Assembly: GCA_037893245.1 (NCBI GenBank)
Contig: JBAIAA010000743.1
Span: forward strand, 1-64,000
Direction of reading: 5' to 3'
DNA: 64,000 bases
DNA from: Crossaster papposus
Taxonomy: Eukaryota > Echinodermata > Asteroidea > Velatida > Solasteridae
Part shown: one piece after another, positions 29,301-55,446 of the stretch
How the letters are laid out: each line of letters starts with the position of its first letter
Position numbering within the stretch: the first letter of the stretch is position 1
Position numbers and translations under genes: made by a program
Notes under the pieces: generated by a model
What the model was told of the DNA's origin: nothing
What the model saw: the letters and a program-made list of their open reading frames with translations, nothing else
The model's database searches: none

Positions 29301-32300
29301 ATAGTCACCCATATGTAAGGAAATGGTTAAAAGGTAGTGGACACAATTTGCAAACATTCAAAAGAAAAAACTGCCAACATTTCACTTAATAGTAAGTAAA
29401 TAATAGTATCCAGCATCTTGTTGAATATTCGCATCATTTTAGAGCAAAGAGGAATTGCCACCATTTCTTTGTGGGGGTTAGGACCAAACCATCCATTCAC
29501 TTGTTCTTTGTTTGGGGGCAGGCAACATCACACGAAAATCACATCTCACACGCCTCGGAGAAGGAGAGGAAAGCATCGTTACACCACGAACGGGAGTTGC
29601 TGCTTCAACAGGACAGGCGTATTGCCGAGAGGTACCTTGACCTTTGAACTTTACAACTTGACCGTTAACCCCTGTCTCCAGTCCATGAGAAATGGTTTCT
29701 CCCAATTCTCATTTTGTAATCGTAGAGGAGGTGCTTGTAGAGTCTATACAGGATATAGTGTCCATATTATTAACTTAATCTTGAATGTCATTTTTCACTA
29801 CGAGCCCACTTTTCAGGCTCATTCCTCAGTTAAGAATAGCTGTGGGTTTGCGCGAGCGCATTAGCACCACCCACTATGGATATGCACGAGTAATGGTACA
29901 GACAGGGCAGGCACTTTTATTAGTGTACTTGGATATTTGTGTTGCCATTTTGAATGGTTTGATGTAATACTCTCTCACATCTCAATACCTGCAGACACGA
30001 GAAAGAGCGGAATTTATTGCGAGAGCATCGAAGAGGTGACCACCACCACGGCACTAGACCACCGCCTCTGGTGTCGCCGGTGCGTCCGTCTCGCGAGGAA
30101 ATATACCGCCATAAACTCTTCAACAACCACCGGCCCGTGAGCCAGGACAGTGTCGTTAACCACCGGCCAGTGAGCCAGGACAGTGTTGTTCCGCCCCAGT
30201 ACGACTACGAGAGGCTCAACAGTGTCGACCGGATTCTATTGAACGATAAGTCGTCAGTGACCACGTCGGCAACTACAGTAGCAACGACGGTGGCGGCTGA
30301 GAAAGCGTGGTATGAGCAGCAGCACGGCTTGATCGCCAACCGCGTGCAGAGTCCTCACGCCAGCGCGGTGAGGGAGTTGGACCACGAAGCTCGCGTTGTT
30401 GTCAACAGCCACGGCCCGCCACCACCACCACTGCCGGCCAGCGCGCACGCCAAGCCGTCACATCTCAGTCAATACGACTACGACCGACCGCACGCCGAGT
30501 TCAACTACCACCTGCAGGAGTTCTATCGGATCAACCAGCAGGTGCGGGAGCTGCAGAACAGTCACGGCGGTGGGGACCAGCTGCCACCACCGCCCACGGT
30601 GCAATTGAACGAAAACGGGGACCCCGTGGTGTCCAAGCTGGACTTGGAAGGTCGCCAGCGATTGGAGACACGGGCCAACGGCATCTACATCTCCAGCGAG
30701 AGTGATTCGGACAGTGCGGAGGAGACGGAAGTCAAGCGAGAGCGATACCGCAAGAGGATGCGGAGAATTGTCAGGAAGTCCTGCATGACTCTAGACGATT
30801 CGGAGAAGAAGACCAACTTCTTTCAAGTCATGGGCTTGGTCACACATGGAAAGAAAGAAGGTAATATCTCCCCTAGCAAAGTGTTTTACAAAGTTACTTC
30901 AGTATCGGTCCATATCAGTACATACATGTACTTCAGTATTTGCCAGATTGAATGCTGTTCCAATTGCAGGTTGTCCCATGCGCAAATTGCTTAGGTACAG
31001 ATGTCTGGCAACTTCTCTGACCTAAGTTGTTGGCTAGAGACAGTATGATTGTATATTTTTATTTATTTTAGTAATATTAATTTAATGCTTTCATACCTGG
31101 TAAAAGCCAATTTTGTAAGTTTCCTACTTTTCCAAATTACCTACAAGTGTACTTTCCAGTTTCTACGCTTATCAATTTGTAACTTTCCAAATTCTAACTT
31201 TTCATCGTTCTGAATTTTAAATGTCCACTGCCCAACTTTTGCAAGATTTCTTAGATTTTTATATTATCCCATCTTTCAAATAGTCCAACTTTCTGAATTT
31301 AACACTCTGTTCACTACTTCCAATAATCGACTTTCTGTGCTTCAAAAGTCACAAATGGAAACCTTTGTTGTTGTTATTTTCCAGAGATAAACCAGGAGAA
31401 ACGAAGGAAGCGGCGGATTTGGCTGAAGGAGGACCAACCCACGGCCAAAGTCAGTCGGCCGGCCTTAGAACCGGCCAGTCTGCTGCCCTTGCCGGCTAAG
31501 GTGAGCCAGGAGGACTTCCAACGAGAGCTGGACTACCCTCACAAGTGCCGGTTCTTGCGCGGCATGGGGCTGGACGTCGTGGGACGGGACAAAAGGAAAG
31601 GTGAGTCATCGGTGTTATTTAGCCAGGGCTAAATAAGTCGGTCTGTTTCTATGGAAACTCTAGGTGGCACTTTGTCAACGACTCATGAGTTGACTACTCA
31701 TTTTCTCGAACAAATGGTCATTTATTCAAGTATCGGATTCCAATATTTAAAAGTGTCTGGTTTTGTTGGGTTTATTGGGGGGCTCTCGTTCAGATATGGA
31801 AAAGGCACGAGCAGCTGTTGAGGCATACCGGATACGGCAAGCCAAGAAGAAAGAAGCAATGAGAAGAGAGGAGGCTAAGGAGGTATCAGAGTCTGCAGTG
31901 GGTGGCTCTGAAACAGCGCAGACGCCAGCCGGCCCCACCAACGCAGGTACGTAAAGGGATGTAAATAATTTAATGGGTCACAATTTGCGGTCTTGATGTT
32001 ACTTGGTTTGCAGTGTTCTCTACGGCCTGAAGTTTGAGCAGTGCAGGCAGATGGCGGACGTCACTGGCTGGGTTAATATACAGACTCTTTTTAGAAAGTT
32101 ATATTACCATGACGGAAATGAAATGAAATGGAAGATGCCGTTTTAACCAGTTAGCGCCGCAATGCGTAAACTCGTAACCATTTTGCGTATATACTGGAGG
32201 CGTGCAAACACAGAATGCATTGCTGGTTTCCACAAAAAAATGTTGAGAAATGCCCCCCAAAAAATTGACCGTATTTTTTTTGTCAATAAACCCAGGTACT

Positions 32301-34720: not shown

Positions 34721-37700
34721 CTCCATCATCCATAGTCAGGGGCCACACTATCCATTGTACAGGGCCACCACCATAGCAACCACTTTAAAAGAATAATGTA
34801 ATGCAAAACAAAATGTATTTAATTCACAGGGGCCATTTTTTTGGAAGGAAAAAAAATGAGTGTAAATATTCGGTATGTCTTTTAACAGTTATTGTCCATG
34901 ATGTCATTGTTTTGGTTTTTTTATAGTTTTTTTTTCTGATTTGAGGGAAGTAAATGTGGCTTTAATAATTTAAGAGATGATAGAGAAGGTTTTACTTCTT
35001 TTGTAGAGCACTTCCCGAGGAGTTTTTGTTTTGTTTGTGTCCATGCATCAATTGACTACCAGTACTTGTCTTGTACATGTTACAGGGCCACTTACTGGTT
35101 TTTAAACATATTTTAGACTTATCAAAAAAAAGGTGATGTACATTTTTTGTTTAAGCAGGAGACTTTGGTATATTATTCGGGGAAGAAGTGCAATTTGGGG
35201 AGATGTATAATGAAAACCGCCCCCTGTAATTTATTACGATGCAAATTGAATGCATTAACGGACGTCGCGTTTAAAGATATAACTCGGAAAAAAAATATGT
35301 GCAGTGTCTTAAATGCTTCACGGTCAAGACCGGTTGTTTGTTGTTGTGGTTTTAGTCATTTTTTAAGTTTAATTATGCCAAGGTCTTAGATTTGGAAACA
35401 GAAGTTAACAGAGTTTTTTTCTGGAAATGGAAGGAAATATGAAAAACAAACTGAGAAACAAACTGAGAAGTCATTCAAAGGTAGCATACACCATTTCTGT
35501 AATCTTCAAATATGTTTAACATTTTGTGTTCATAGATGCTGGAGAAAACAAGAACAAAATACTTGTAGTCTGGTTACTTTGCTTTCTTTATACGAAACAG
35601 CAATTTATAGACATCAGGGAATTATTAGGTTAGGACACCAGACTAGTTGGCTGGCACCCATTCATGGATGTGTAATCGTATTCCAAATAAAATGTGGACT
35701 TGCTTAATAACAATTAAATAAATGGGGGGCAGTGTTTTAAAAATAGTCAATTTGTTTTTTAAATGATTGCTGGCTGGCAATCGTTCCACAATTCCACAAT
35801 TCTTGAAAACTAAAGCACACCAGGTGCTGTGATTTCACAGGATGTTTGAGACTGATAGTCACTTGCAGTCGGGTAAGATATTTCACAATAATTCAGTACT
35901 GGAAGTTTTGTTTTTGGATGTTTGCAAATGATGTATACTACCTTTAAGGAACTGTTTTGAAATAATGCATCGGTGGTCTTGTTTTTTTTCAGTAGGACAT
36001 GGTCGTAATGACAACAGCCTTATGCAAATTTAAGAAGCTAACAAAACTGACCAATCACTGTCTCACCTGTGTCACATGACTTTATTATCTCTCACCAACT
36101 GAATTCTCGGAATGAAAAGCTCGGACTCCTTTTCCCCTTTTGGGAAAATGCAAGCACTTTTGGCGCTTAAAAACTCAAATAAAAGAGACAAAATTGCTGC
36201 TTAAAAATTTAACATTCTAAAGGGAAAACAAATTATAATTATCTGAAAGCCAAAACATTTTTATTTCACTTCAGCACCAGTATTGATTAAGTTTGTTTAC
36301 AAAAAAAGCGTGTGAATATTAACTTCTGTTTTCATTTTATCATTGAAATGCTGAGCACCTTTCACAGTCTTCTTGTCTTGTTTATTTATTGGTTATTCAC
36401 TTATGAAGTTGGACAATACAAATTATTTATTGCTCTGAAATATTAAACAACTTAAGAACAGGATTATTCCTTTTCTTTCTTTTGGAAAGAATTTTTTCTA
36501 ATTTATAAACCCCCTCTATATATGTTTGTGTAAAGTATAGATCGAAGAGAGTTTTACATAAAAACACACATTTTAAAGAATGTCAATAGCTCTTCTTTTT
36601 TTTTTATAACGGTCTGGTTATGATACAGTACTGAACCATTTGGATTGTTCATCCAACACCACAAAGATTTTTTTAATTTTTTGTTTGTTTACGTTGATTT
36701 TGTTCAGACCAATTGCATTCAGAAACCATTTTTATTTCCTGAACGATGAAGGTATAAAGGTCTGCTGACATTGTATGCACGTCCCTATTGGATAAAAGGA
36801 TGTACCTCCAAGATGGGGTCAGTGCAAACGGTCTATTGACTCGAGCCCCTTCATTTGTGTGAAACGATCTTTCAGCAGTAACTCGGACTACTATATTTCA
36901 GTAGTAATCAGAATGGTGCATCAAATAGGGCATTGAATTAAGGATTGAGAATTGAATTGAATTTGATGCCACTTTAGCATCTAAATAAAACCTAGACATG
37001 ACATTGGTCGTTTCAAAACTGTTCTGAATATCGATTCGTGTATAGAATACAGGCATGATGCGTGCACAAGAGGACGCACGCTTGCATTATTACGCGTAAA
37101 ATAGAATTCAAACTTTGTGTGTTCTGAGAACGATAGCTCGTCTGGTTTTATTAGATGTCTACGGTATCTGCGAGGTACAATGCAGTAGGCACACGCGCTT
37201 TCAAAGAACACATGACTGGAAATTCGATTAGTAAACACGGTCCGTTATTTTGTGGAGTTAAAATTTTGGTTCTACAAAATGACGGAGTTTTATTTGTTAG
37301 TAATTCAACAAAAACCACGCAATTTGAAGGAATAGTTGTGTGAATCTTTATATTCTACTTCCCAACTATATCCATTTCTTTTGTATACATGAAAACACTC
37401 GATCCAAAGCAATGTGCCCCTTTAATGTGCCTAACTGTTGGATCACACACTCTATAAAGCATCGCCATGTCCTGTGTACATCAACACTGCACTCTCTATG
37501 CTGCACTCATAGTATTAATACCACTAGTGGTTGAGAATTTCTGAGAAATTATATGAATGGCACTTTTTTTTTAAGAAACTGAACAAATAACCAGTGTCTG
37601 CACAATCGTTTGTGTATTTGTCTCCTCCATTCTCAAGATCAACAAAAACGTAGATTTTTCACGTCCCTTCCAAAAAAGTTAACATTCTATTTAAAAATGT

Positions 37701-37916
37701 TAGTTCAACTTTTGTTAAATTTCAATTTCCATGTTTATTGTGTTAACGGATTAAAGGGTTGTTTTCCCCCAAACAAACCTTGAAATAGTAATGATAAAGA
37801 CATCAAAAGATTCATCTTAACAAAAACCATGTCAGAATAAATGGAAAATTTTAAAATACAGATATGGCAAGGATATTTTACACGGACAAAATAACATGTT
37901 TGTACACGTTCTTTAC
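34721..37916 (+). other. Probable GSE1 3' UTR followed by intergenic DNA
   Basis: No coding exon is seen. AT-rich sequence directly follows the GSE1 stop. AATAAA signals occur, for example at 35686-35691, and AAATAAAAG near 36177; which one is used cannot be told from sequence. A repeat-like stretch at about 35,620-35,950 shares phrases such as GATTTCACAGGATG with intronic DNA at about 46,670-46,860, so part of this region is dispersed repeat. Confidence 0.45.
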
Positions 37917-37924
37917 TTTGTAAC

Positions 37925-38626
37925 CATAGAGTTTTATTATAGAAACTAGAGAGCGCACTTATCACGTGACCCCTGTCCTGACAATGATGCATGGATGCCA
38001 TTTTGTAAGTGGGCAAAATTTACATAGTTGATTTTAGCTTACGCATCTCTTTGCCACGCACGGCAAAGGGATGCCCGAGACTTGTGCGTGCTTTGGCTGC
38101 ACAAATCAGAGCTACGTCAACAAAACCAGAAACATCTTATTTCACAAGTAAATACTTTATGGGATAGCGGTGTCGGCAGTTTAAGTTGCCAACCACCAAG
38201 ATCAGCCCGACAATGTCACCTGTTTATATTTTTTGTTTAACCATGGTGGTTAAACCAAGCAACATGCAAGAATCGGCCTGTCGTATCAGCATGTAATACA
38301 ACTGCAATCTGCGCCTTTGCTCTCTGCGTCTACCACTTCATCACTTATGAGCAATCTCCTTGAAAATACTGGAACTGCCATTGATTTGAGGGAACATAGG
38401 GATACGATTTACCGATGAAACTGTCTGTCCAAGTACCACAAGCAATGTCACTTGAAATGGCCAATAAAGTTTACTGATGTATAGCTGTCGCGCCGTTGAA
38501 GAGCATACTACATCCGGGTATTTTACAATCGTGTTGCCCACTTACAAAATGGCGGACGGGTTACAGGGCGGCACGTCCGTGTATCGCTCACAGTATAGCG
38601 AGTGCGCTCTCTATAATACAACTCTG
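37925..38626. mobile_element. 702-bp TIR element carrying a THAP exon (P-element-like, non-autonomous)
   Basis: The left end begins CATAGAGTT at 37925 and the right end is its inverse, AACTCTG, at 38626. Further matches between inverted arms are TATTATAG, AGAGCGCACT and a perfect 19-base block GCCATTTTGTAAGTGGGCA (about 37998-38016 versus 38534-38553). Flanks TTTGTAAC (37917-37924) and TTTGTATT (38627-38634) could be an eroded 8-bp target duplication. The left half encodes the start of a THAP zinc finger. THAP-bearing transposases with 8-bp duplications belong to the P-element superfamily. There is no room for a transposase catalytic domain, so this is a deletion derivative or a promoter-plus-first-exon remnant. 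Confidence 0.7.
38071..38147 (+). pseudogene. Partial THAP-type zinc-finger first exon
   Basis: An ATG at 38071 opens MPETCACFGCTNQS and the frame ends ...NILFHK at a consensus-like donor AA|GTAAAT (phase 2 after 38147). This is the classic N-terminal pattern of a THAP domain: M-x-x-x-C-x4-C-x-N, then FHK, normally followed by F-P in the next exon. The second half of the domain (Cys-x2-His, AVPTIF box) was not found downstream inside the element, where stops are frequent. I read it as the first exon of a deleted P-like transposase. A host THAP gene with distant exons is possible but unlikely, since inverted repeats flank it. Confidence 0.6.
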
Positions 38627-39420
38627 TTTGTATTGCACTTTATTTCTACTATTTGAATCAATGGGAAAATGTTTGTATGTTCATTAAGTGTAGAAAAAAA
38701 AAAGCAGCTGACCATATACAGACAAGTTTATTTCTTTTGGTTATTCACGTAAGCTGTTATGTACATGATAATTAAAACAGTGTTGGTGAGAATTCCACTG
38801 CTTCTTACGAGAAAAAAACACTCCTTTTTTTTGTCATTAAAAAAAATGGCTAATATGCAGTGTGTGCAAGCAAAACATGGAGTTTTAGGTCAAACTCTAA
38901 ACGTGCTTTTTAAATACAACGTATGCTTGAAATTTATTTTCTAAAAAGAAAGGAAAACAATCCAGACGTGTTTTAAACTTGGTTTTTATTCTTGTACATT
39001 GTTACAATGGTGGAATTATAGTTGGGATTGCAAGGGGAACATTTGGGGTTTTATCAGCAGTGTACATTAATATACAAATACCGAGGTAGGCATTTTTGAC
39101 AAATTCTATCCTTATTATTATAAGGATCATTGTGGTGACCAAAAATGGGTTTTGATTGAGTTAATAGATTAAATAAAAAAAGTGTTGATAAATAGTTGTT
39201 CTAAAAGAAGAGACAGCCTAACAACTGTGAAAACTTTTAAGAGATTATGATCTATTTGTGAAGTAATTTAAAAACGAAATGAAAAGAGAATAAATATTGT
39301 GTTTTGTACAGTGGTCACTGGAAAGCGATTCTCACCTGAAGGTTTTTTGTGTCAATTTTGTTTTTGTTTAAGATAGATGAAAATATACCCTGATAAAATC
39401 TTCAGACACAACTTTAGTTT

Positions 39421-39684
39421 GACTAGGTTGCGCCGGGATTATTTATTGTGAACCTCGGCCGGTGTGATATGAATATCAGACTGCTGTGTAAATCAGACTT
39501 GTTACCATTCACTCTTCTCATTATCATGATCATCACCTAATTAAGCATGCGCAATACTACCACTGAGTCAATATTTCATAGATTCTCAAATTTATGCTAC
39601 ACCTGCATCTGTGGGTAGCACTGACAGATATTTCCAGCCTCGCTCGTGACTCGTTTATAAGTCATCCGACGCGAACTGGTTTAA
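39421..39684. mobile_element. Diverged TTAA-family MITE copy near GINS2
   Basis: The left end GGTTGCGCCGGGATTATTTA and right end GTCATCCGACGCGAACTGGTTTAA match the family. The interior carries unrelated sequence, so this is an old copy with an internal replacement. It lies about 300 bp beyond the GINS2 stop. Confidence 0.55.
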
Positions 39685-39981
39685 CCCTTTAGCCCATCGC
39701 ACACCTTTCTGATTGTACTGGTTGACCGGTGCGTTCTTTTTCTTCACTGGGGATACTGCAGCGTCCACACATGCCCGGTTCTGTTCTATAATTGGCAGCC
39801 GTCAATTTTTGAATTACGCGACTTGCTTCGTAACTCTGGTTGACATTCTAAAGTGTCACTCCCAGGCGTGGTTCTAGAGCCAATATTTTAGGTAGTATAC
39901 ACATTTTCCAGAATGTTTTTTTTGGGGGAGCTACCCAAAAGTTTGGGGGGCTACAAAGCCCCCCTGTAGAACAGCGCCTGG

Positions 39982-41864
39982 TCACTCCTGCGTATATTGC
40001 ACTCCACCGGTTAACGTGTTCAGCCTCAGTGTATGCATGTGATCTAAAGCCTGGGTCAGGAACGGACGAACAGAGTTGATCTCCATCAGGGACAGGTTGT
40101 CAAGCTGTATGTAACAGAAAACAAAAATATTAAAATTTAGTGAATCTGGAGATGGTCTAAATATAAAAATATATGAGTTTGGCTCTAAAGTTTGAGGATT
40201 TCAAGTTGGACTGCCTGGAGAAAAACCCTTGTGGCACAGAAGCATCAACGAACAACTCTACTTACATATGGTCCCAGCCAGGATTCGAACCCCGGTCACA
40301 CTGGCAAGAGGCGAGCGCTTTACGTACTAGCCACCTCGCATTCCCCCATGCTCGTTTGTGGAGAAATGAATGTCAGCATGAAACGAACTGAAAGCTTCAA
40401 AGCCCTTTGCTAAATAAACTTAGCCTAATGTTTCCTTTCTTACCCGGGCGTAGGTTTCTTGGTCTTTGACAAACTTGTCCACGCTCTGACGAAGTTTGGC
40501 CATTCTCAAATCCCAGATGTCTTTGATCAGTGTGTGCACTTCGTCAGCATGGGGGATGTCATCGGTTGCACTGTACAAAACACACATTCCCAAAACTGAA
40601 CTCTTAGGTTTGTCCATTCCTTTGATTGTTACACCCAAGCTATGGCATCTTCCCAACTATAGTTGTCTGTCCCAACCCAATTCAACAGAATCCACTATTG
40701 CAAGTTGTTGCAGGGTGCTCACAGAATGCCCTGTGTTGTGTGGTTAAGGGTTATGAAAGGCTCATGCACCAAAAGTTGGATTTTTGTTGGGGGGGGGGGG
40801 GGGGGGGGCAAGAAATGTTTCTTTGCAATTCTTTCAACACTCACAACAGAAACTTTAATGCAAGGAGGCAGAATATGTGTACGCTGATTTTTCCCACCAA
40901 ATTGGGAAGAGAAAAACAATTTTTAGTTTGAACAATAGCTGTAGACTTTGTACATAACCAGAAAGGCATCAGGATACTACATCATACATGCTTTCTGGCC
41001 TCTCTTCAGACTTACTGGCTTACTAAGAGTTTAGTCACTTCCATATAGTTCTCATTCAGCATTGGCTGAAAGATGGGCGAATCTTTCTCTTCTTGCTTTT
41101 TGGCCTGAAGTTTCTCTGGGTAAAAACAAAACATAAACACAATTTGGTAAAACATCAGAAAATATCAACAAGGTACAAGTGAAAATGAATGGAATAAAAA
41201 AAGGTGCTAAACAAATTAATTTGTGTAACTGTGTCCTCAATGACAATAGTCCTTATTGTAACGTGTACATATCATTTGCCTTAATGTCAGTGTGCCATAC
41301 CAAGTACAAATTGTTTCTGCTCAGTCATCATGACATGAGTGATTAACCCTTCTAGTTCTAAGTTCATCATGGTGTTATATGAAAGAGGAGAAAATTAGCT
41401 TTCCGATGATGCGTACATTTTTTAAGAAAAAAAATCATCTGAATTTTCGGATAATTTACCCGAAAACTTGGGTTTCCTTTTTTCAGGGACACCCTGTGTA
41501 GGGACTAGGGAGAGGTTTGTTGTTGTTTTTAATTTTCCCCGGGATTTAGACTCTTGGCTTTAGAAATATTAGGCTAATTAGTTAATTATTTGTAAAAGAT
41601 ATTCCGTCTAACATCCAACATCTAACATCCAAGTGTAAAAGGTGAGGTTTCATTATTACCAACGTCCATCCATTCGGGTGGCTGTATCCTACACTTCTGT
41701 CGCTGCTTCAAATTCACTGCCATCCACAGCGGAACCTCCACCGGAAGACCCGCGTTGAACGGCCCGATGTTGCCCCCGATCAGGAACACTTCGTCGTGCG
41801 AGAATTTCGGAACAACAGTCACCATTTGTTTTTCGGCTAGAAATTCCACATCCGACGGATCCAT
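39982..41864 (-). CDS. GINS2: GINS complex subunit 2 (PSF2), four exons, complete
   Basis: Exons in transcript order: 41660-41864, 41016-41115, 40444-40570, 39982-40104. They total 555 bp, 184 aa plus TGA; human PSF2 is 185 aa. PSF2 is one of four GINS subunits (Sld5, Psf1-3) of the CMG replicative helicase in the nucleus. The N-terminal beta (B) domain is clear: [58 protein letters not shown]. The helical A domain follows: [35 protein letters not shown] and [11 protein letters not shown]. The start at 41864 is the first ATG of the frame and matches the family's MD-x-x-(D/E)VEFLAEK start. For exon 2 the GTAAGT donor after 41016 was preferred to one eight bases earlier because it restores the conserved SH-ATDDIP join. 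It is divergent with anillin. Confidence 0.97.
40140..40345 (-). repeat. tRNA-derived SINE, minus strand, in GINS2 intron 3
   Basis: On the minus strand, GGTGGCTAGTACG (A-box region) and GGTTCGAATCC (B-box) form a tRNA-like head at 40273-40340. It is followed by a body with GCTTCTGTGCCACAAGGG and an AT-rich tail towards 40,140. It lies between GINS2 exons 3 and 4. Confidence 0.7.
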
Positions 41865-42366
41865 TGTGGATGGAGTTTTGCTCACAGACGGGCCTCAGAT
41901 AGGATAAAAACCGACTACATTCTTGATACTCAAATTCAAATAAAAAGAAACACGTTCCCGACGTGTATTTCTGGTTTGGCGCGCGGAATAACTGTTGACA
42001 TTTGTTTGTACACGTGACAATGATGAACTTTGACATTTCTTGAATTGCTTTTTATAAAAGTATAATATGACACAAAAAATGACAAAAATGTAACAAAAAA
42101 CTTTAAAATAGTTTAGTTTGCTGTTAAAGAATCTATATTTTAGTAAAAAAAAGTTCTTATAAATAAATTTGAAATAAAAAAATACCCACAGTTGAAAGTG
42201 ACGAGATATTTCCCATGATGCAATAGTCGAATGCCCATCAAATTCAAAAATCCGGTACTGCGGCGCAGACGTGACTGACACAGAAATATTTTTTTCGACG
42301 CCTGTTCGAAAGTAGTGGCTAATTTGTTAATTTTTTAGGCGGTTTTACCATTTTTGGGATCTATTT
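41865..42366. promoter_or_regulatory. Divergent promoter between GINS2 and anillin
   Basis: The two start codons are 502 bp apart in opposite orientation, so both 5' UTRs and promoters must lie here unless a noncoding exon intervenes. TTTGGCGCGC at 41975-41984 fits the E2F consensus TTTSGCGC and is close to GINS2. TTCGAA at 42305-42310 and TTCAAA at 42243-42248 (TTTGAA on the minus strand) fit the CHR element TTYGAA bound by DREAM/MuvB complexes at G2/M genes and lie near anillin. The motif assignments come from consensus only. Confidence 0.55.
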
Positions 42367-43942
42367 ATGGACGACTTCACGGAGGTAAGATAGCCAATTA
42401 AATTTACAATAGAACGTTTACGTTAGGCGCATGAATTGACGTCCAATTCGACGTTGGATAGACTCGTCTCGTGATCGTGGCGGTATACCGCCACGTTCAT
42501 TTACGTCACGGGTCTGACGTTGGACAACTCGACCGGTCATGCCGGTGGGACAACTCGACTTGGGTCAACTCGACCCGTTGTGAGTGGACAACTCGACTTG
42601 TTGTGTTTTCTAGATCACGGCTTTGCAACATAACAAGTAACTTAAAACTAACTAGTAAAAGAGGCCAACTACGACAGTCACTTTTCCTCAACAAAACTAA
42701 GTTTACAGTATATATTGTTGAATGTTGGCTCACGTCGCAATCCTACAATGACCAATGCCGATTCTCCCGATCGGCATGACCTCACGAAGGGGTAAAGCCG
42801 TATAGCTAGCAGTAGCAACATGCGTTAAACTTCAATTTTTCCCCTCGAGCTAGTGCTAAACTAAAGTCAAGAGAATTAACAAAGCAAAATTTCTTTATTT
42901 GCGACAAGCAGGGAATTCCAAAGCATGCAGTTTTGGCGTTTTTGGCATTTTCTGCCTAAATCTACGCAGTGGGGCACTTCATAGAAAATCTTCAGTTTCC
43001 GGGCCATGGCATGCAACTCAAGAACATTTTAAATTTTATGATCTAGTTAGACTTCTTGATTTTATAAATTTCTGATTTTAATTTTTTTGTTTATGATGTG
43101 TGATTGGGCACGGACCACGGTTAAATATAAAAAATAATTCCCACTTCCAAAAATGATTGAGCCTGCTGTAGTCATGGTTGTCTGTAGTCATAGTTGGTAC
43201 AAGTTTCAATTTCTTTCGCGATTAAAAGCGTAATGTATACGATGGAACACGTGCAAGCGGCACGCACAGCTCATCGCACCAAACAACAGAGAGTGCTCTG
43301 CTAGTAAAGTGCAACAGTTATACATGAAAAATATATGGCATGCACGACGGGCACCATGCATGGTGGATGCTGCACCGGAACACATCGCGATACGATGCAC
43401 AGTCGCGACAGCGACGCTGCATGCAGGGCCTGCTGGAAAATGCCAACAAATTACCAAATACTCTTTATTCTGGCTTACTACCTTCTCAAGGTGTCGAAGA
43501 CAAACTACCAGTACCATCTAATGCTGCAATGGGTACTCACGATTATTTTGATGAACTGCAAATCAATGGAATTTAACCAATCTGATACATGTATGTAAGC
43601 AGTAATACTGGGTGAAGTTGCTGAAGCCACTACCATAGTCGTGTGGGTATTTCAAGCAATAGCCAATTAATTTGGATACGACCTAAGATTGCATCATTGT
43701 GTAAGGACATGAAGCCACTTGTCTACTGTACTGCAAATTTGAAAAAAATTAAGAGGATTTTCATAAGTTGCTGACTTGTTCTTGATAATCTTATTTCCAG
43801 AAACTTTTGGAAAGAACGCGGGCAAGGAATGAGGCCATTGCCATGAAAATGAGCCAGTCTGAGGTATCACCCCGCAAGAGACGGACTCCGCTGACGGATG
43901 TAAACTCCTCTGACAGTGAGGAGAAGAAAGTCAGATTTGATG
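42367..43942 (+). CDS. ANLN: Anillin exons 1-2, N-terminal signature
   Basis: Exon 1 is only 18 bp (ATG GAC GAC TTC ACG GAG | GTAAGA). Exon 2 starts at 43801 after TTATTTCCAG and continues KLLERTRARNEAIAMKMSQS. The joined MDDFTEKLLERTRARNEA is close to the start of vertebrate anillins (MDPFTEKLLERTRARRE), which fixes both the tiny first exon and the start codon. The 1.4-kb intron between them contains an unexplained open frame at about 43,340-43,576 that has no anillin similarity. Confidence 0.93.
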
Positions 43943-46900
43943 GTCAGTACAGATAGCATTGCCTTGAATAGAGCGCACAGAAAATGTAGAAAAACAAAAA
44001 CAAATTTGGTTTTTATTTTTTTCTTGTTTTTTTAAACCTACAGCCTCCCCAGTGAAGTCGTCAGTGATGCGAGGTAGCGATTTGAAGCCAGACACGCCAG
44101 CTATACCTTCAGTCCGGTCACGCTTGACTAAGCTGACTGATATGAGAAAGGAATGGTCTGCTGCAGGTATGTCAAGCTCCAAAACCCTAAGATTTCCTCG
44201 TAACATTTGTTAAATTGTTTTTTGTCCTTTGCAGGAATGTCATAAAATCTCGGAGTCCGCTTGATAGTCTAAAGGTTCAATTGTCTGAAGATTTGAAAGT
44301 CTGAAGGTTCCATAGTCTGAAGGTTCCATAGTCCCAATGTTTGATAGTCCCAAAGTCCCAAGGTTTCGTAGTTCCAAGGTTTCGTAGTCTCAAGGTTCGA
44401 GAGTCTCAAGGTTCGATAGTCTCAAGGTTCGATAGTCTGAAAGCACTCACTCAAGGTTTAAAAGTCTTAAGACGTTGTGTAAATTTTTAGTATGTATCTT
44501 TATGTCCATTCATAAGCATGGCAATTTATAAGCATGCACACTTTGAGTTTGAATGTCATGTTTAAATACAGAAGGATCTGAGCTGGACTCTCCCCAGAAT
44601 GTCCCAGCCCCTCGGCCCCGTCAGCAGGAGGCTCCACCGAGCACCATCCCCTCTGCACCAAGCAGCAGGAAGAGCAGGTTTGCTGCCCTGGCAGCCAGCA
44701 TCGGTAGCTGGGAGGACGACCTGGACCATCCCAAGATTCACTTCCAACATGAGGTACAGGTCACTAATGTGTAGAGTATGTGCCGTGGCCTCGTGGTCTG
44801 AGCATTGAATTTGCTGTCTGTGGGTAAAGCTGCAGGTTGTGGGTTTGAGTCTGGCCTGGGACTGTGGTGCGTGAGCTCTTGGGCAGGGCACTTTGTCACT
44901 CGTTGCTTCTCCACCCAGGAGTAAAATGGGTGGGTACCTGTGAGGGCGGAGATGGTTTTTATTAGCTACATATCATCTTGGCTATTGTGCAAGCTGGGGC
45001 GTTGCTGAAATATGTAAATGAACCGTTGTGTAAATATTCATAACCTTCAAACAACATCGTGGCTTTATGCAGTCGGCGACCCACACAATAGTGTATAATT
45101 TGTGGAAAGGAACTAATAACTTGCTAAATGTATTTATTTATTTTTTCTCTTTCAAATAAACATAAAATTGCCAATTTTCTGAGGTATATTTTTGGTGATT
45201 ATACTGTAGCGTGAACTTATAGATGAGGAAACTAAGTGTTCCAAAACTTGTTGTGCACATCATTGTTTTGTTCTTTCTTCATCCAAAGGAGAAGCCACAA
45301 ACTAAAAAATGGGAGCGTCCTAATCCAGTTGAAGAAATTACCAACGACCCCCCGCCACCAAAGAAGGGCAACGGCATCCTGACTGGCAATCCCAAAAAGC
45401 CAGCCCGCAACGTGAGGTTTGAAGATGAAGTTGAAGAGAATAATGAGCCTCCCAAAACCCTTGGGAATGGGCAGGGTAAAGCCCAGATGAGATCACTCCC
45501 ATCTAGCAGTGGCAGCCCGGCGAGGGAAAGGAACCCCTCTGGGGATGTGAAGAATGGGAAGCCTAACGGAAGGGCTGAGCTGAGGTCCTTGCCAACTGGC
45601 GGCAGCCCGGTCAAGAGCAGTGCTTACATCAGGCTGGTGGAGCAGAAACAAGATGGGGCAAAGTCATCGTCCAAGTCCCCAGGGAGGAAACACATACAGG
45701 TGTCCCTGTCTCGGGAGAGAGAGCCTTCTAGAATGGAGCTGCAGCAGCTTTTTGCCCAAGAGCAGCAGGAGCAGCAGCCAACTCCCAAACCTAGAGCAGC
45801 ACCTGCAACCACCACAAGCAGCGCTGCCACCTCAACAACAACTCAGCAGCCGAAGCCTTCCATCAAACGGCCGGCACCGCAACCTGACCAAGCCGTTAAG
45901 AAGCAAGCTCTGGGTCCGGCCCTTGAAGCCGATGCAGACCCGACCCCCAAGGAGGGAGCCGCAAGTGTCAAGGCTTACTTCGGGAGAAACAAGATGGGCG
46001 CCGGTCCGACATCGCCGACCTCTGGCAAAGTGGAGCCACGGGTGGGCGCCATTGCCAAGTCCATTCAGAATAGGCTTCGCCAACATCAGGAGAACTGGCA
46101 ATGCAATGATATTAATAAACAGATTCAGGTAAATACTTTGTTTTCTCACACAAAAATAGTAATGGATATAAATATTAACCCTAGCCCTACTAGATCTTTC
46201 AAATCCACTAGGAAAGTTGAACAAGTTAGGAAAGTAAAGCTTTACATTGGTTTAATGCCGATTTAAATGCAGTGTAAAGTGAATGTTGGCCACTTCCAAT
46301 CAGATTTTAGAGGATTAATGACAGTTCCTTGCAAAAATGCCCTTGGATGAATGTGGGTTGCAAAGCTATAAACTACAGGATCGAAACATAGACTTCCAAA
46401 TACCCTCTATCTATTTCAGGAGCAAAGGAAGAAAGAGTTGGCTATCATCCGGCAGAGGTGGAACCACTCCACCAAGACTGAGCCTGCCAAGGATGAGACA
46501 GACAACAAACAGCCTACGGTAAGAATGAAACAAGTATTTTATAGCAAATAATGATAAACTCACCTGTTTAAAGTGTTGTGTTCAAAGAAGCATTAAAAAT
46601 GGAAAGAAAACAAAATTGTTCTTTTATTTTGGTGAAATAGAGTAATTAGATGTCTGGGATTTGTCCGGTCAGGGAACTAGAATCGCACCCGTTCATGGTT
46701 GTTTATAACCATTTTCAAACAAAATCTGAAATAACAAAATTTTTCAAATTGGTCGGCCAACCGTCGTGGAAAATTTATATACAAGTAGAACTTTTTATTT
46801 AAAATGACAGCACTAAAAGTGCCTTGATTTCACAGGATGCTTAAGAATATCATTTACTTGCGTTTATTAAAAATTGGTAGTTTTTTTTTTTTAATTTATA

Positions 46901-49900
46901 AATGTTGTATATATTGAAAAGTTGATACTAATTTGGTTGAATTCACAGCCCATGCCAAGGGTAACCATCGCTCGCTCCGCATCCCAGCCTGTCGTGAACC
47001 AAGATGAGCTGGAAGACCCGATGGAGGTCACAGAAGACACCATCAATATTGGGATGATGGAATCGCCGACTGCAGGCAAGTCATCATCAGAAGAAGATGA
47101 TGAAGAGGAGATGGCTGAGAAGGAATCCACAGTCTTCGTTCCTCAGCAAACGGCAGTTATACCTGGGGGCTCAGGTCAGGGGAATGGAGCGTTGACCCCT
47201 CTGCCACCTCCGAGAGAGAAGGCCATTGCCAAGACAGTCGCCCAACAGCCACAGGAGGCGGGACCAGCTACTCCCCTGGCTCCTTCCAGACCACGTCGCA
47301 CTAACAGCAAGCTCTTGGCCGAGGAGGAAGCCAGTGAGTTCCTTCACAGAGGGTCCCAAGTTATCAAATTGCTTCCCAAGTTATCAAATTGCTGTCCCTG
47401 TGCTCTTTTGGATCCACCTCTCCAACCAAAATTCACCATTTTCAGTTGCAGAATATTATCTTAACAGGATTTGAATTAGTTGAGTAAACAGCAATAAATA
47501 TCCGACAGCCAGTAATTCAAAATTGTAATGCATTAACACTTTGTTTTGTCATGCCTCATTCAAATGAGAATAACACCTGGTTCAGATAGACGTTCCAGAT
47601 TCGTGCCGAATGAAACTAGTAAATTATTAACGTCCATCAAAAGTTTGACTTCTGAAATGATTTGGAGGGACTAGGTGCACTTGATGCCAAAAGATCATTT
47701 GCTAGACTCTTGTTTCCTCTTGTTTCCGCGTGACTCAAGAACGCCTGCTGAACCTGATGCTAGAAAAATAACAATCTAGAATCTATTTTACGGGGAACAA
47801 AATTAAAACTAGCCCAGGGAACAAACATTTTTAGAAAGTCGTCCCTGTTTAATTTTTTTTAGAAGCACAACAGGAAGCCCTGTCCAAACATCTCCATCAG
47901 AAGGAAGAAGAAGATGATGTCGATGACGATGACGCAGATGATGAATATGATGAAGATGATGACGACGTTCAGGAGTTGGACATCACTGACGTGCTGGGTG
48001 ACATTGACGATTTATTGGATGAGGCCGAGCAGGCTATGGAGACAGAGAAAAAGACCGACATCCCTCCCCAGACTCGGACCCCTGCCCCTCCCCAGACTCG
48101 GGCCCCTGCCGCGCCACAGAGACAGAGACAGGAGCAGGTGAGAGCTTAGTCTTGGTCTAAGAGGGAATTTGGATTGTGTTGCCTTATTGCAGCCAGCCAG
48201 GTCACTGAAAAGCATATAGGGCTCTCTCAACGAGACGAATCATATTCAGTCTTTGACAGGAATGTAGTAGAGTCCATCACAAGTTCTTGCAAGTCCATCA
48301 CAAGTCTTCAGTCTCAATTCAATTCAAATCACAAGCTATTCAAATGAGCTTGGACAAATACATTTCTTGTTCATAGTTACTTGGCAGCACTTGTGACTGA
48401 ACTTTGTGAAAGGACTTTGTGAAAGGACTTGCAGGGACTTGACTACAACTCTGGTCCTTGGGAACAAATTCTGGGCATACCTTAAATGCACTATATTCAA
48501 GCTAACGCCCACACTTTTTGCTTTGAAATTTCTTGGGTCCAAGTGCTTAAAGACTGTGCAGTCTTAGAATAAGACTGCACGACACAATCTGTGCATGCAG
48601 ATTGGGCAGAATAATGCAACACCTGAAAAAATCCCTGTTATTGGATTCCTCAGTCGTTCATCCCAACCCACGACCCAGCCACGCTGTGAAAATAGTAGAT
48701 CCAATCCACAGTTTATAGAAGTTCCATTGCACGGTCATGCTCTTACCAAAGTTGTAACATGTGTGCCATTTGCCTGTTGCACGTAGTATTTTAGAAGATT
48801 GAGAAGATCATCATGTCAACTCTAGGTGATGGTTAATAATCTATTAGATTCGTTAATGTATCCCCTCTTCTCGTGCAGCCTGCCACACCACAAGCCGTAG
48901 TCAAGAAGCCGCCCTCCGGTCTCGAGGCCCTTCCGCAGCCCAGCACCTCCCAGTCCCCAAACCTGTACAGCATCGAGTCCTTCCGCAAGCAAGGCCCCAA
49001 GTCCCCGGCAGCTGCTGCCAGGACTATCATAAGGAGCGACAGTGGCACCGTGGAAGCCGGCCAGGGGGTCAAACCCTTGGTGCTGAAACCAATACCGATC
49101 AAGGAACAATTACAGGTCCGTATATTAGTGGTATTTAAATGGTCTCTGTGAGTTTTATTTTGTGTTTACTTAGAATAGTTATTGAAATTTACCCAAGATA
49201 AATTGTTTGTGGTAGCACCATGTGTGACCTGTTCCAACGAAACCCGGACAAAGTCGCACAATGTGTTTTGTCACAATGTACTCCTGAAGTCATTTCTGGA
49301 TGGATTTTACCATTTTGAGGTTTTAGGTTTTCCTAAGTCACTCACTATTAATCTACAATCTCCTCAAATTTGAACAAAATCCGTCTACCAGAAGTGGTTT
49401 TTTTGGTCAATTTTGTGAAACATTTGTGTATAATACGCTTTTCTGAACTTCAAAGCTGTTTATCTCATAATTAGGTTGTCAGTGTTTTATCACTAAATCC
49501 AGACCCCAGGGAAGATAGGGTGGGGGTACATATGTAAATGATACATCATTTTAAAGCTGAGAACCTAGAGAATTTGAAAAAAGCAAAATCTGAAAAACTA
49601 AAAAGTCAACTTTGTCCGGGTTTCGTGGGAACAGGTCACATGTGGTAAATCTCTTTTGCGATTTTGAGTGGTTCTGAAAAGAACACAAATTTGTGATGTC
49701 GGGGCAAGTTTTGGCGGTGCGAATTTGCAAAAGTTAAACACATTTCGCAGCGAAATTTTGGAAGGGGGTTGTTTCATGACTTAAGATTGGCTTTGCGAAC
49801 GCGTGAAGTATGGACCGGCTCGTAGTGAAGATAATTCAGAGAATGACTAAAAAAGGGTTTAACAAACAGGAAAAAGGAGTCGGATTTTCACAGGAGTCTG

Positions 49901-52900
49901 GGGTTCATATGACAACTATACACCGTTTCCCCTAAACAATTTAATAACACTCAAGGCCTACTTGGTGTATTTATCACAGACCCTGATTGAGGAAGTGTCC
50001 ACACAACAGAGTATCATCTATCAGACCAGTCAAGCCCTCAACCTGATAGCCTCTAATATCGAGTACAAGGGGACTAGGCAGGAGGTAGAGGCGGAGAGAT
50101 TGCTGCTTATTGCAGGTGGGTTATTAAGCCAACAACTGGCTGAGCACATTTGTACCGTATTAGCGAAAAATTTGCTGGGGACCATTCGCATGCAATATCA
50201 GTTGCACGACAATTTGGCTGGTAACCATTGTTTGCTATTAAGCGGACAAGTGAGAAATGTACACAAGCCAAATATGGGCAGGGCTTAAAGTTAAAATTTA
50301 GAACGGTCTGCAGTGATTCGCTCTACATACCTCATGGTTTTGGTTTTTTTTAAAGTTGTTTTTTTTTGAAAGAATGTTGCAATCTGGCACTGTTTTTTTC
50401 CTTTATATATGATCTCAATTAAGGTCAATCAGTGCAAAAATGTTGAAAAAAAGACATGAATCTGGGACCGAGATACATTTCCGATTGTGTTAGGAATTTT
50501 TTTCGGTACTCTCTATAGACTTTGTACACAACCGCTTAAGTAGCACCAGGATACTACATTCTTTCTTTCTTTTTTTTGTGAACCGCAGCTCAGAGGCGCC
50601 AAGCCTGCTTGGCAGAGATCCAACGTCTGAAGACCCCAGCCAGTGTTCGGGGGCTCAGCGCCATGATTCAGACCTCGGATGGTGAAGCTATCAGACCCTG
50701 CAAAGGATTTATCTCTATACAGGACATACGGCTACCACTCAAGACGGAATATATCTTGGCCTCTAAACAAGGTATATGCAGAGTACCTATCATACAGCTT
50801 TTTAAAAAAACGTTGAATTAAAATATTTATTCAAAGTTTAATCAGTGGGCATTATTTGAAAAAAACAAAACAATTCAATAGTCACATTTTTAGCATTTTT
50901 ACAAGGGGTCTTTCACTAATAAATTTAAATCTGTTTGCATGCCTGGCAGCAAGAAGCAAAATAAGTCTATTGGAAATGTACAAACAAACATTATCATTTT
51001 TCCAGTATTTGTCGACGAAAATAGGGACTGAAATTCACGCCGCGGAATCACATCGTTTGTGCCGGGACTCGGCCGCTGATTGCACGAAAGTGCGTAAGGC
51101 TTATGTAACAAAAGGTTGCGTAGCTGCCCTATTTCCTTACGGACCATTTTACAAAACTTGGAGTAGCCGGGCAACATTTTAAACAGTGTTTACAACGACT
51201 GTTTGTGTTATATTTGTGTTCTTTCACGAAATCGTTGTTGAATCAACTCTGCTTGCCATTTTGTTAAAAGTTTTGTCAGACTTTCCATGGAAAAATAGAT
51301 TTCAGTCGCTAAAGTACGCCATAATTTGTTATGTAAGCCGAGGACTGACGCACTGTTAAACCTTCGTGAAACTGTTGTTGCGCAGCCCGAACAAGTTACG
51401 CAACTTATGCGATAAACTGTGGCACAGGGGATTGCGCCATTGTATAATGTTTTTCGTGAAATCGGCTGCAGTTATCACGATTCAGCCTGCATTCATTTCT
51501 GTTTCTCTGTTAAATTGTCCACCCTGCAGATCGTATGTGTCACTCCTTCTTCCTTCTACTGCGCTGCAGAGAGCACGTCCTTGCCACTCGTATTCAGACT
51601 ACAGTGGATGGAGTCGCAGGTGATTGCTTGCCATTCACCAACGTTGCCAAATTGTAAGACCAAAGAAATGTCTTTCTTTTCCGTAATTTTCCTTTCTTAT
51701 TTACATTTTCTGAATTGCTTCTTTTCCATTATGTTCCCTGTAATCCAGGTTTTGAAAAGAATTCCCGATGACCCAGTATAATAGACCGATCCAGTATGCC
51801 ACACCCCTTTGAAGAATTAATAAATCACAATGCATAATTTTAAGGTCCGACAAATTGTCGCCATTTTTGTCCAACAAAAAATCTTCACTTCAGTTTTAGT
51901 TTACCACAAATGTTTTGTTGATTTAACTTTGGTTTAACTTGTACGCCCGGATTCCATTGACCAGCCTGATTTTAATCATGGCGTTATGTTGATTGTAAAT
52001 CCGACTCCCAGTGCCATTAATAAAGAAAAATGTAATTTTTGGCCATTTCCTATTAGCTATCCCTACTTGTATGTGATTACAGTAGATAACCTTGCCCTTT
52101 CTTTAAAACCCATATTTATTGCACAATTTCACATAAAGTTCGCCAAACTTTAACTTTTTTGTGTTTATCAGCAATAACCTGGACAGTGACTTTGTGATCG
52201 AGGCCTTCGTCTTTGAGATGCAGAACAAGAGGCCTAAGTCAGCTGATGACAAAGGCAAACAGACCTTCTTCTCAGGCCTGACTCCCAAGAAGATACTGGC
52301 CAATATGTCCAAGGATTCCAGGGTAGGTTTTCAAATAGAGCGATAATTCCTCATTCTCTCGTGCAATTTAATTTAAAGTATAGCTTTTGCAGCTATTCAA
52401 AAAGTAAATTGTTGTTGAAAAGCTTACTTGTTGTAAAGATGAGATTTGAAGGTTTGCAAGGCATTATTCATACTTGTTTGTATTGTTGTTGTTGTTGTTG
52501 TTGTAAAGATATTTATTTCATCAAACTCCCTTCTGGCATGTTGTCATTTTGAAGAAATAAATTTAAGAATGTCATTTCCGAAGACGCATCTTTGGAAATT
52601 TACATTACTACTTGGTTTGTATTCCGTGAACGATGCACGCAATCATTGGAACCATGCGCACGTTCGGTGTTAATGTTGGTCGATTCAGTGCATGACATGT
52701 GCGTAGCTGTAGGACTCGGGAGTGTTTTTTTTTTTTAAACATTCGTCAAGTTGTCCTCGTATATAAACAGACTAAGATTGCATCATGATTGCACGCATAC
52801 GAAGATAAACTGTTGAGGAGGATTCAATAATTTTGTCACTTGATTTCTGTGTCCAGCAAACGATGAAGACCCCCACTGCCCCCAGCCCCGGTGGGCCAGG

Positions 52901-55446
52901 CGCTGTCCGTGCCAGCAGCTTCACTTTGGTCGGTGCTACCAGACTGACCCTCCCAAGCTGTAGAGTCAACAGATTCACACTCAGCAAGGTATTACCTTGA
53001 TTTACGTCCCACGCTGTGTGAATATTGTGGCCCTGGAGACCGGATCGTACTCGGTGCGAAAGCAAATTTGTGACAGTCGGGGCACGTTTTTATGGTGCGG
53101 ATTGGCAAAATTAGAAACATTTTAACTCCAGTGAATTTCGTCCCGCAAATGTTTCGGAACATCAAATTCGTTTAGCGTGAAGTATAAACCGGCCTTTGTT
53201 CAGTAAAAATATGAAATCGTCAGTGTCCAGCAGGGCAGGAAAAACAAATCTGTATCAATTGAATTGAAATATTAATCAATATTGAATAAAATTGGTGTTT
53301 GTTTTTCTTTTGGGGAGGCCTATTTACTTGTGAAGTGTTTCAACTTTCAAAAGACATCACATAACCAAACTGTCGATCACAATTCACAAGTCAAGACATC
53401 CCCAAAGATTTATTTGTTACGCGACTTGTAACTTGTGCGTTTACTCCCGATTTTCTGGATAACAATTTTTTTAAATGCAAAAACATATACATCTTTCATG
53501 TATCTTCACCAGTGTGCCGTTTCTGCAATGGTAATAAACAAATTCAGTTGTAAATTGCTTTTTCACCGCTGTTCACTACATGTTTTTCCTTTAGTGCACA
53601 CAAAAAAATTGGTCAGAAAACTTTTTGATTAAAAAACAACCAGGCATAATCTGTTTACAAATGGTTCATAAAAACGAGTCAGATGAGTAATATCTAATAC
53701 AACCCTCTAATTATTGTTCCAACAATACTGAGATTTTAATTTGGTTTTGGGGTTGGCAGGTTCCATTCAATTCGCCCCTGGAAGGCACTCTCCACCTTAA
53801 GATGACCTGTCACACCAATGCTAACGTGACGATGAGCGGCTGGCTGACCATGTTTGATGATATCAGTGGCTTTGGTGCCTGGCATCGACGCTGGTGTGTC
53901 CTGAGTGGGGGCTACATCTCCTACTGGAAATACCCGGATGATGAGAATCGCAAAGTGAGTCCAGTCTTCATTGCATTGTTTGGCTGTCAAACTTATTATG
54001 TACATGTAATTGAGGGCACTGACTCGGCAAAGGGGTATCCCGTACCAGCAACAGCCGCGTTCGCAGGGACTTTATTTCATAACATTTTATCGTGAGTGAT
54101 TGTTGATAATATACTGTGGCTATTGGCCATCGCAAAAGTATTGCATAACAGTGACGTGGGTCAGCACAAATTGCCTAATGATGGATCAATTTAGTTAAAC
54201 ACAGTACTTGATACAGCTATTCGTTATGAATGGGTGCACAAAAATCTGATATTTTTGACGTTGGATATTTGTATTAATTTGTGCTCAAAAATGATGTTCT
54301 GCTTCTGACTGTAAACGTAAACATTTAAAATAGTGCTCATGAAATTCTACTCCTCAAGTTGTAATCTCTGCCTGTCGATTCACCCACCCAGGCTCCTAAC
54401 GGCACCATAGACCTGAGGCAGTGCATCACCATGGAGGTGGCTCCCATCTCTCGCATCCTGTGTGCCCGACCTAACACCTTTGAGCTGGTCACCAGTCAAC
54501 CGGCCTCTAAATCGGTCCAGCAAGGCAGGGATACACTGGTCACCAAGCACGAACACTCAGTTATCACCACAAAGTGAGTGTCAAAGACTACGTCCAAATT
54601 ACTTAGCCTGCAGCCCATTTAAAAATAAATGTGCCTAGCTTGCGTCGTGCCTAGCTTGCGACGTGCGTAGGACTTGTGCAACAAATTTGTTGCATAGCTG
54701 CGTAATAAACTGGCGATCGATGTTTTGCAACTTGGCGTAGCTGCGCACTGTTTTGAATAATATAAACATCCTGGACGAGAATAATTAGATTTGCGACAGC
54801 TGTTTGTGTATAATTGCGTTCTTACACAAAACGGTCGTTGAATCACCTCTGCCCGCCATTTAGAAAAATAGTTGTCTTTGATTTTTTGTAGAATTGTGCG
54901 GCAACTCTAAAAGTAATGTTCCGGGTAAAACAACAATTTGTTTACTTCAAGCACAAGGCTGCAAATGTCTTTTAACAAGCTTGATAAGTTGAGCAATGAC
55001 AGGCTTAATGGCAATCACGATTTGCTGGTATTTAAGAAGACATTTTCAGTTGCTACGCCACAAGTTACGCCATAATTTGTCGCTCAAGTCGCAGACTAAA
55101 CTATCAAAGCATTGGTTATCTTTGACTTGCCTTCACTGCACGTTTTCAACCATCCAACGTTGCCAAGGAACTCATGTTGGTCCAGTAGGCAGGTACTAAT
55201 ATCTTTTTTAACTCCCAAGTACTCTGTGTATAATCATCTGGGTACCAGACGATGTCTAAGGCTGTCTTACAAAATCATCTGATTGAATTCTAATCATGAT
55301 TTTGACAATCTTTGCTTCTTCCCCTAAGACATATGCTGTCTGCAGACATCAAAGAAGATCGCATCCCATGGATCAACGCTTTGAACAAGACCCTCCTGGA
55401 TCTGAGAACATGGAATCGAGATGCTGCCAGGTCCAGCGCGTACTGA
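42367..55446 (+). CDS. ANLN: Anillin, 17 coding exons, complete
   Basis: Exons: 42367-42384, 43801-43942, 44044-44166, 44572-44753, 45289-46128, 46420-46518, 46949-47333, 47863-48137, 48879-49115, 49980-50115, 50589-50771, 51530-51653, 52172-52322, 52857-52988, 53760-53954, 54392-54573, 55329-55446. They total 3522 bp, 1173 aa plus TGA (human 1124 aa), with all phases joining. Anillin is the scaffold of the cytokinetic ring and binds F-actin, myosin II, RhoA, septins and membrane. The N-terminus MDDFTEKLLERTRARNEA is the family signature. Residues about 155-690 are polar, Pro/Gln- and acid-rich, with KSRFAALAASIGSWEDDLDHP. The anillin homology (RhoA-binding plus cryptic C2) region is about 768-1030 and the PH domain about 1034-1160. 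Codon use and splice signals are normal. Confidence 0.97.
44265..44460. repeat. Short-period tandem repeat in anillin intron 3
   Basis: Imperfect 16-18 bp units of the form AAGGTTC(G/C)ATAGTCT recur about ten times between exons 3 and 4. Confidence 0.8.
44785..44960 (+). repeat. tRNA-derived SINE in anillin intron 4
   Basis: The head has TGGCCTCGTGGTC and GGGTTTGAGTC. The body GGGCAGGGCACTTTGTCACT and TCTCCACCCAGGAG with GGGTGGGTACCTG is typical of SINEs in invertebrate deuterostomes. Confidence 0.7.
49217..49645. mobile_element. 429-bp element with about 40-bp inverted ends, anillin intron
   Basis: The left arm has TGTGACCTGTTCC followed by ACGAAACCCGGACAAAGT; the right arm is its inverse (ACTTTGTCCGGGTTTCGT then GGGAACAGGTCACATG) with about two mismatches. 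The interior is AT-rich and noncoding. It sits between anillin exons 9 and 10. Confidence 0.7.
49980..52988 (+). CDS. ANLN: Anillin homology region (RhoA-binding and C2) exons
   Basis: The five exons 49980-50115, 50589-50771, 51530-51653, 52172-52322 and 52857-52988 encode: LIEEVSTQQSIIYQTSQALN and EAERLLLIA (start of the homology domain); DIRLPLKTEYILASKQ; CHSFFLLLRCREHVLATR with STVDG-like QTTVDGVAGD; NNLDSDFVIEAFVFEM; and TPTAPSPGGPGAVRASSF with LVGATRLTLPS. Each segment aligns in order with the human region between QQTVIYQASQALN and FALVGSYTLSL. Exon 51530-51653 uses the GTAAGA donor, not the in-frame GTGATT 34 bases earlier, because the longer form supplies GDCLPFTNVAKF, joining directly to NNLDSDF. 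Confidence 0.9.
51184..51500. repeat. Dispersed repeat shared with anillin intron 16
   Basis: CGACTGTTTGTGTTATATTTG, CGTTGTTGAATCAACTCTGC and ACGCCATAATTTGTTA are matched in order at about 54,790-55,090. Both copies lie in anillin introns. Superfamily not identified. Confidence 0.5.
53760..55446 (+). CDS. ANLN: Anillin PH-domain exons and C-terminus
   Basis: Exons 53760-53954, 54392-54573 and 55329-55446 encode the linker VPFNSPLEGTLHLKMTC and the PH domain. The latter contains MSGWLTMFDDISGFGAWHRR, the WCVLSGGYISYWKYPDDENR strands, GTIDLRQCITMEVAPISR, CARPNTFELVTSQP and a C-terminal helix with DIKEDRIPWINALNKTLLDL. The invariant late tryptophan of PH domains is the W of IPWINAL. The protein ends RSSAY-TGA at 55444-55446. 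In anillins this domain binds PI(4,5)P2 and septins at the equatorial membrane. Confidence 0.95.
54620..55170. repeat. Dispersed repeat, second copy, anillin intron 16
   Basis: It contains tandem TGCCTAGCTTGCG(T/A)CG at its left, then the phrases shared with 51.2-51.5 kb. Sequence just left of it (GTCCAAATTACTTAGCC) resembles the inverted end of the 22.1-kb MITE. Confidence 0.5.

Follow-up and report, generated by a model that had tools for sequence, protein, structure and literature searches.

P-type MITEs (P-MITEs) have been described in Anopheles gambiae, where the AgaP MITE families extend from 205 bp to 2,450 bp according to the excerpted text of PMC1562414. In zebrafish, the P-type transposon Pdre2 has ends starting with CATA (CATACCTGTCAAC) and generates 8-bp duplications (excerpts of PMC10983969). 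The portion of PMC3688188 dealing with Galileo places its THAP footprint at +63 to +80, and the sites of the P element at 53-63 and 41-51.

Here we analysed a 702-bp element located at 37925-38626 of the window, the whole 64,000-nt stretch of Crossaster papposus contig C743 under study. The element carries terminal inverted repeats, a 20/20 subterminal inverted repeat and a THAP-like first exon, and we consider it very probably a non-autonomous, MITE-sized member of the P superfamily that would have arisen as an internal-deletion derivative and spread in trans. A P-MITE with a retained THAP first exon was not found in the open-access literature searched. P-MITEs as such are already known, and the element looks like a further example of this kind rather than a working repressor.

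Architecture and copies of the 702-bp element

The left terminal inverted repeat (CATAGAGTTTTATTATAGAAACTAGAGAGCGCACT, 37925-37959, plus strand) was delimited by arm comparison, sister-copy alignment and a genome pattern search, and its right counterpart (38601-38626, minus strand) comprises 26 nt in the window copy compared to 35 nt in the family form, which ends with CTCTAGTTTCTATAATATAACTCTATG. Further inside, the left subterminal inverted repeat (GCCATTTTGTAAGTGGGCAA, 37997-38016, plus strand) matched the right one (38534-38553, minus strand) at 20 of 20 positions, and the arms also included 13/13 and 15/16 inverted pairs. Alignment of the two arms gave a score of 74.5; random pairs of window segments (n = 3,878) reached at most 61.5, and 2,000 shuffles at most 41. 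The long inverted arms reported in the initial annotation were real. They matched in the tips (35 bp on the left, 26 bp on the right) and in the 20-bp subterminal block but had diverged in between, and hence did not constitute a single uninterrupted inverted repeat. The coordinates given there for the 702-bp unit, its target duplication, the ATG and the splice donor were correct when checked against the sequence. An AATAAA polyadenylation-type signal at 38463-38468 of the plus strand, which a manual count found in 8 of the 12 copies aligned end to end (see below), is a possible remnant of the 3′ end of a transposase gene, and the conserved stretch preceding it might represent a transposase C terminus.

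The element belongs to a repeat family of its host genome. A search of 1,023,315,904 bases in 1,841 contigs returned at least 59 match rows when 40 of 478 candidates were scored; these rows counted the window itself and multiple pieces of single copies, and such counts are lower bounds. Among the scored candidates, matches covering nearly the whole query were 71-79% identical. A 33-nt left-end pattern (window 37937-37969, up to 3 mismatches) occurred at 132 genomic places, compared to none for the reversed-pattern control, and 12 of 21 copies (20 fetched copies and the window copy) aligned end to end, including sister copies on other contigs. The initial annotation named the lack of other genomic copies with these ends as grounds for refutation, and the outcome was in its favour: the match rows, the left ends and the end-to-end alignments all revealed such copies. 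With its 702-bp length, terminal repeats and target duplication, many copies, and a reading frame intact in only 3 of 21 of them, the element has the features of a MITE.

Nine copies in the set were partial. The left terminal repeat was not found by blast within the fetched flank in eight of them, and the ninth, L142, had the left end together with an insertion. In L140, L141 and L144, the left part was replaced by one common unrelated sequence joining just before exon 1, a junction that may represent either a recombinant or a nested insertion. Four other copies (L133, L134, L135 and L137) had common flanks and, because of this, probably spread by segmental duplication rather than by separate transposition. 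At two places, C106:1064941 / 1072005 and C691:614946 / 622003, a left end and a 3′ part were separated by about 7.1 kb; these are candidate long elements, and they may also be duplicates of each other or have come together by chance. Outside the host genome, blastn found no match in the phage collection, and the 20-nt subterminal repeat was absent from the viral contigs searched; a 15-nt end pattern occurred there in at least 120 stretches, which we took for chance.

Comparison of nine copies revealed mean column agreements of 0.967 in the right subterminal repeat, 0.934 in the right terminal repeat and 0.917 in the left subterminal repeat, with an element mean of 0.892; exon 1 (0.876) and the left terminal repeat (0.863) lay below this mean, and the low value of the latter counts against our interpretation. 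The ends that define the family are CATAGAGTTATATTATAGAAAC and its complement. In the copy alignment they took the form CATAGAG...CTCTATG over about 35 bp, with the CA start and TG end of the P superfamily, and in the end-to-end copies the left end read CATAGAGTTATATTATAGAAACTAGAGAGCGCACT and the right end its complement. The left tip was altered in L133-L135 and L137. At the right tip, the window copy stopped 2 nt short of the family end CTCTATG, reading CTCTG, and about 7 nt were missing inside its right repeat.

The flanks of the window copy, TTTGTAAC at 37917-37924 and TTTGTATT at 38627-38634, matched at 6 of 8 positions, and only with the right end placed by hand at CTCTG; the automatic register had put this end 2 nt further out. 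The 8-bp duplication suggested earlier was consequently imperfect and hand-set in the window copy, but it was supported by the sister copies. Flanking 8-mers matched at 8/8 positions in L129, at 7/8 in L132, L133 and L139, and at 6/8 in L136 and L147 as in the window; agreement was poor in L130 (3/8) and in L131 (1/8 as octamers), and the flanks of the latter had the 9-mer GAATGCTGC in common. In total, 51 of 72 positions matched in these nine copies compared to a permuted mean of 25.2, and none of 100,000 permutations scored as high, with the register set by hand for two of the nine duplications (the window copy and L133). This scoring excluded the nine partial copies, as well as L134, L135 and L137 because their flanks were shared with L133. 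The target duplication of the family is supported as 8 bp long. Kolobok, a further THAP-bearing group, was tried as a candidate and rejected: its target duplication is TTAA, and the duplicated flanks here were 8 bp in length and differed from TTAA.

An 8-bp duplication fails to separate P from hAT elements, which also make duplications of this length, and some THAP proteins, for example THAP12/PRKRIR, are hAT-derived. The element could accordingly be read as a derivative of a hAT transposon whose transposase carried an N-terminal THAP domain, and the right end of the window copy, taken alone, reads CAGAG inward and resembles the hAT end motif Y-A-R-N-G. However, the family end CATAG departs from this motif at its third position, leaving the duplication length as the only fit, the CATA start is that of Pdre2 (excerpts of PMC10983969), and the subterminal blocks analysed below are common to a transposon with P-type domains. 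On balance, we favour the P superfamily over hAT and regard a hAT origin as unlikely. The CATA ends, the family-level 8-bp duplications and the shared subterminal blocks support the P-element-like assignment made in the initial annotation.

The THAP-like first exon and its surroundings

The exon that we assign to a THAP-domain transposase, on the basis of PDB matches and copy comparison, lies at 38071-38147 of the plus strand (MPETCACFGCTNQSYVNKTRNILFH plus 2 nt). It starts with the ATG at 38071, contains 26 codons and ends at its last base, 38147 (CACAA), immediately before a predicted splice donor GT at 38148-38149 (plus strand, GTAAAT) that was retained in 19 of 21 copies. The exon lacks two of the four THAP zinc ligands and represents half a THAP domain. 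Pfam recognised no family in the 26-residue peptide, leaving the THAP motif below its detection. A phmmer search of 177,635 PDB sequences at E values up to 10 returned a single match for the window peptide, THAP2 (E 0.42), and three matches for the better kept exon peptide of L145, all of them THAP1 or THAP2 (E 0.12, 0.22 and 0.88). E values of this weakness are expected since the peptides have only 26 residues, and the matches, solely to THAP proteins, agree with the proposed ATG-initiated half THAP motif ending at a donor. The THAP1 match stopped at residue K24, which we take to be the end of exon 1 in human THAP1 and the same place as the donor of the element.

The open frame, the consensus-like donor and this presumed THAP1-like intron position would also suit an authentic host THAP gene whose first exon is situated by chance between inverted repeats, with its remaining exons at a distance. 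In contrast, the exon region and the ends recurred in the same arrangement in sister copies on other contigs, and the frame was broken in 18 of 21 copies; the ATG and both cysteines remained in frame to the donor solely in the window copy, L130 and L145. Since repeat copies carry the same exon and ends, an ordinary unique THAP gene is contradicted, and we regard this explanation as extremely improbable compared to a transposon-derived exon.

A truncated protein encoded by the retained exon might in principle compete with the transposase for its sites, in the manner of KP, which keeps the whole THAP domain plus a dimerisation region. Such a decoy or repressor role was put forward in the initial annotation, and it has real precedents in KP and the 66-kDa protein (excerpts of PMC7776569). 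A slight third-position excess in the exon also speaks in its favour: codon positions 1, 2 and 3 differed from the majority at 9.1%, 6.5% and 14.1%, respectively, compared to 8.0% in the rest of the element, a count from which nothing firm follows because the copies are related and CpG sites were kept in. This excess fits a coding past or coding constraint without showing present selection. However, a decoy needs a DNA-binding product, and the exon holds half a THAP domain, with 26 residues and two of the four zinc ligands compared to the 207 aa of KP (excerpts of PMC7776569). The loss of the frame from most copies argues in the same direction, and a Pfam scan of the three plus-strand frames of 37601-46602 at E values up to 10 detected Anillin_N only, with no second THAP half and no pieces of a P transposase; this is weak evidence against a second half, as Pfam also misses exon 1 itself. 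The repressor idea is therefore unsupported, and we judge it hardly credible. We consider the window copy probably inactive and most likely devoid of a functional protein product; its exon 1 could yield no more than a peptide of 26 residues or an aberrantly spliced transcript.

An anillin gene at 44600-54000 of the plus strand was indicated by the Anillin_N match (E 1e-9) and, below the cut-offs, by a match to the PH domain and pieces of the anillin domain. The element lies on the same strand, about 6 kb upstream of the first match (which starts at about 44.6 kb), and a fusion of exon 1 with the neighbouring gene would be possible. Each insertion of the family brings half a THAP motif and a well-kept donor (GT in 19/21 copies, the ATG frame in 3/21), and the family might for this reason be seen as a disperser of 5′ exons, whose insertions upstream of genes such as anillin could serve as sources of alternative first exons and of N termini resembling THAP; we hold this to be very unlikely. 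Elsewhere in the window, a DUF3736 match (30626-30859, plus strand, E 1.9e-11) marked a gene that is perhaps of the AUTS2/fibrosin kind, and a 307-aa open frame (58639-59562, minus strand) resembled by eye a psq/CENP-B-type helix-turn-helix protein. Tandem arrays were present at 61636-63037 (96-bp unit, 14.8 copies, 93% matches) and at 14561-14683, the latter a perfect array of GTGGCTTTGCTT with 10.2 copies.

Subterminal blocks in a resident P-type transposon

The host genome was searched for THAP domains by scoring 150 of 1,710 candidates, and 30 THAP loci were examined with about 1.5 kb on each side. Four of these loci were scanned with Pfam. At L170, the scan identified THAP (1.3e-16), Tnp_P_element PF12017 (6.5e-16) and the TNP-like RNase H domain PF21787 (4e-8), consecutively and in three different frames; L149 yielded THAP only. 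The pattern GCCATTTT N{2,20} TGGGCA was confined in the window to the two arms of the element, and it occurred near one end in 4 of the 30 THAP loci, L169, L170, L171 and L176, which form one family. The same pattern, which was chosen after the likeness had been noticed, was found neither in 2,560 kb of first-order Markov sequence nor in 1,009,913 bases of viral loci. The blocks start at a similar distance from the end, at nt 64 from the left boundary of L170, defined as the place where its copies stop aligning, compared to nt 73 in the element. No match to the terminal inverted repeat longer than 12 nt was detected in the 30 loci within about 1.5 kb either side of the THAP match. L170 also differs from the element in its tips (CACAGACATAAATAACC) and in having its THAP domain in a single open frame; because the tip letters and the gene structure differ, L170 is a relative at best and probably not the master of the family.

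A 528-aa open frame with THAP, HTH_Tnp_4 and DDE_Tnp_4 at L165:1447-3030 resembled loci L162, L163, L166 and L177 (about 95-99% alike), and this group may represent a THAP-bearing transposon that is young and belongs to a different superfamily. By manual count, 24 THAP matches of equal score (E 7.5e-12) were located on C375, C183, C453, C733, C611 and C1278, and 13 of them lay on C375 at spacings of roughly 110-260 kb, as in a large segmental array.

That the element family has these blocks in common with a P-type transposon unlike it in other respects suggests a possible recognition site for a THAP domain. The 20-bp subterminal repeat lies at a distance that fits a binding site of the P superfamily, and we propose it, from its position and sequence, as a putative recognition site of the THAP domain or transposase. 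This reading is weakened by the finding that the SELEX motif of the zebrafish THAP9 THAP domain is absent from Pdre2, as stated in the excerpts of PMC10983969. A candidate core in the repeat, TAAGTGG, resembling a Drosophila THAP site, was considered as well, but the literature text searched did not show this site, and we do not rely on it.

Proposed origin and relation to described P-type elements

We infer an internal deletion as the origin of the element and mobilisation in trans as its mode of spread, with a THAP domain acting at the subterminal site. In an ancestral P-type transposon, an intron would have interrupted the THAP domain after the FHK residues. The middle of this transposon would have been lost, leaving the left end with exon 1 and the donor and the right end with the poly(A)-type signal. 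A transposase supplied from another source would then recognise both the terminal repeats and the 20-bp subterminal site, and the element would have been excised and reinserted at other positions, where 8 bp were duplicated; the family would have spread and subsequently decayed. We describe the element as a non-autonomous derivative and not as an autonomous P element because, of a P transposase with THAP, HTH and split RNase H / GTP-binding domains, THAP exon 1 was the only part seen. A P-superfamily MITE family in a genome rich in THAP-domain matches would thereby still display the transposase exon from which it came.

Among the described systems, Galileo differs from the element in its 1.2 kb terminal repeats and intronless transposase (excerpts of PMC3688188). 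The Drosophila P element resembles our element in having the THAP-coding part at the beginning of its gene, close to the left end, and in its internal-deletion derivatives, and the Drosophila transposase site, which lies inside the terminal repeat, may be listed as a likeness to the putative site of the element; in contrast, the 31-bp terminal repeats of P have another sequence, and KP is a 207-aa protein whereas the element keeps 26 codons (excerpts of PMC7776569). Pdre2 has CATA ends, subterminal inverted repeats, 8-bp duplications and internally deleted copies in common with the element, but combines a 13-bp terminal repeat with a distant 12-bp subterminal repeat of other sequence, compared to about 35 bp and 20 bp here (excerpts of PMC10983969 and PMC7776569). 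The Anopheles P-MITEs, as presented in the excerpted text of PMC1562414, are likewise MITE-sized and repeated genome-wide, with P-type ends and 8-bp duplications; the element differs from them in its host and its ends, and in keeping a recognisable first exon of the transposase.
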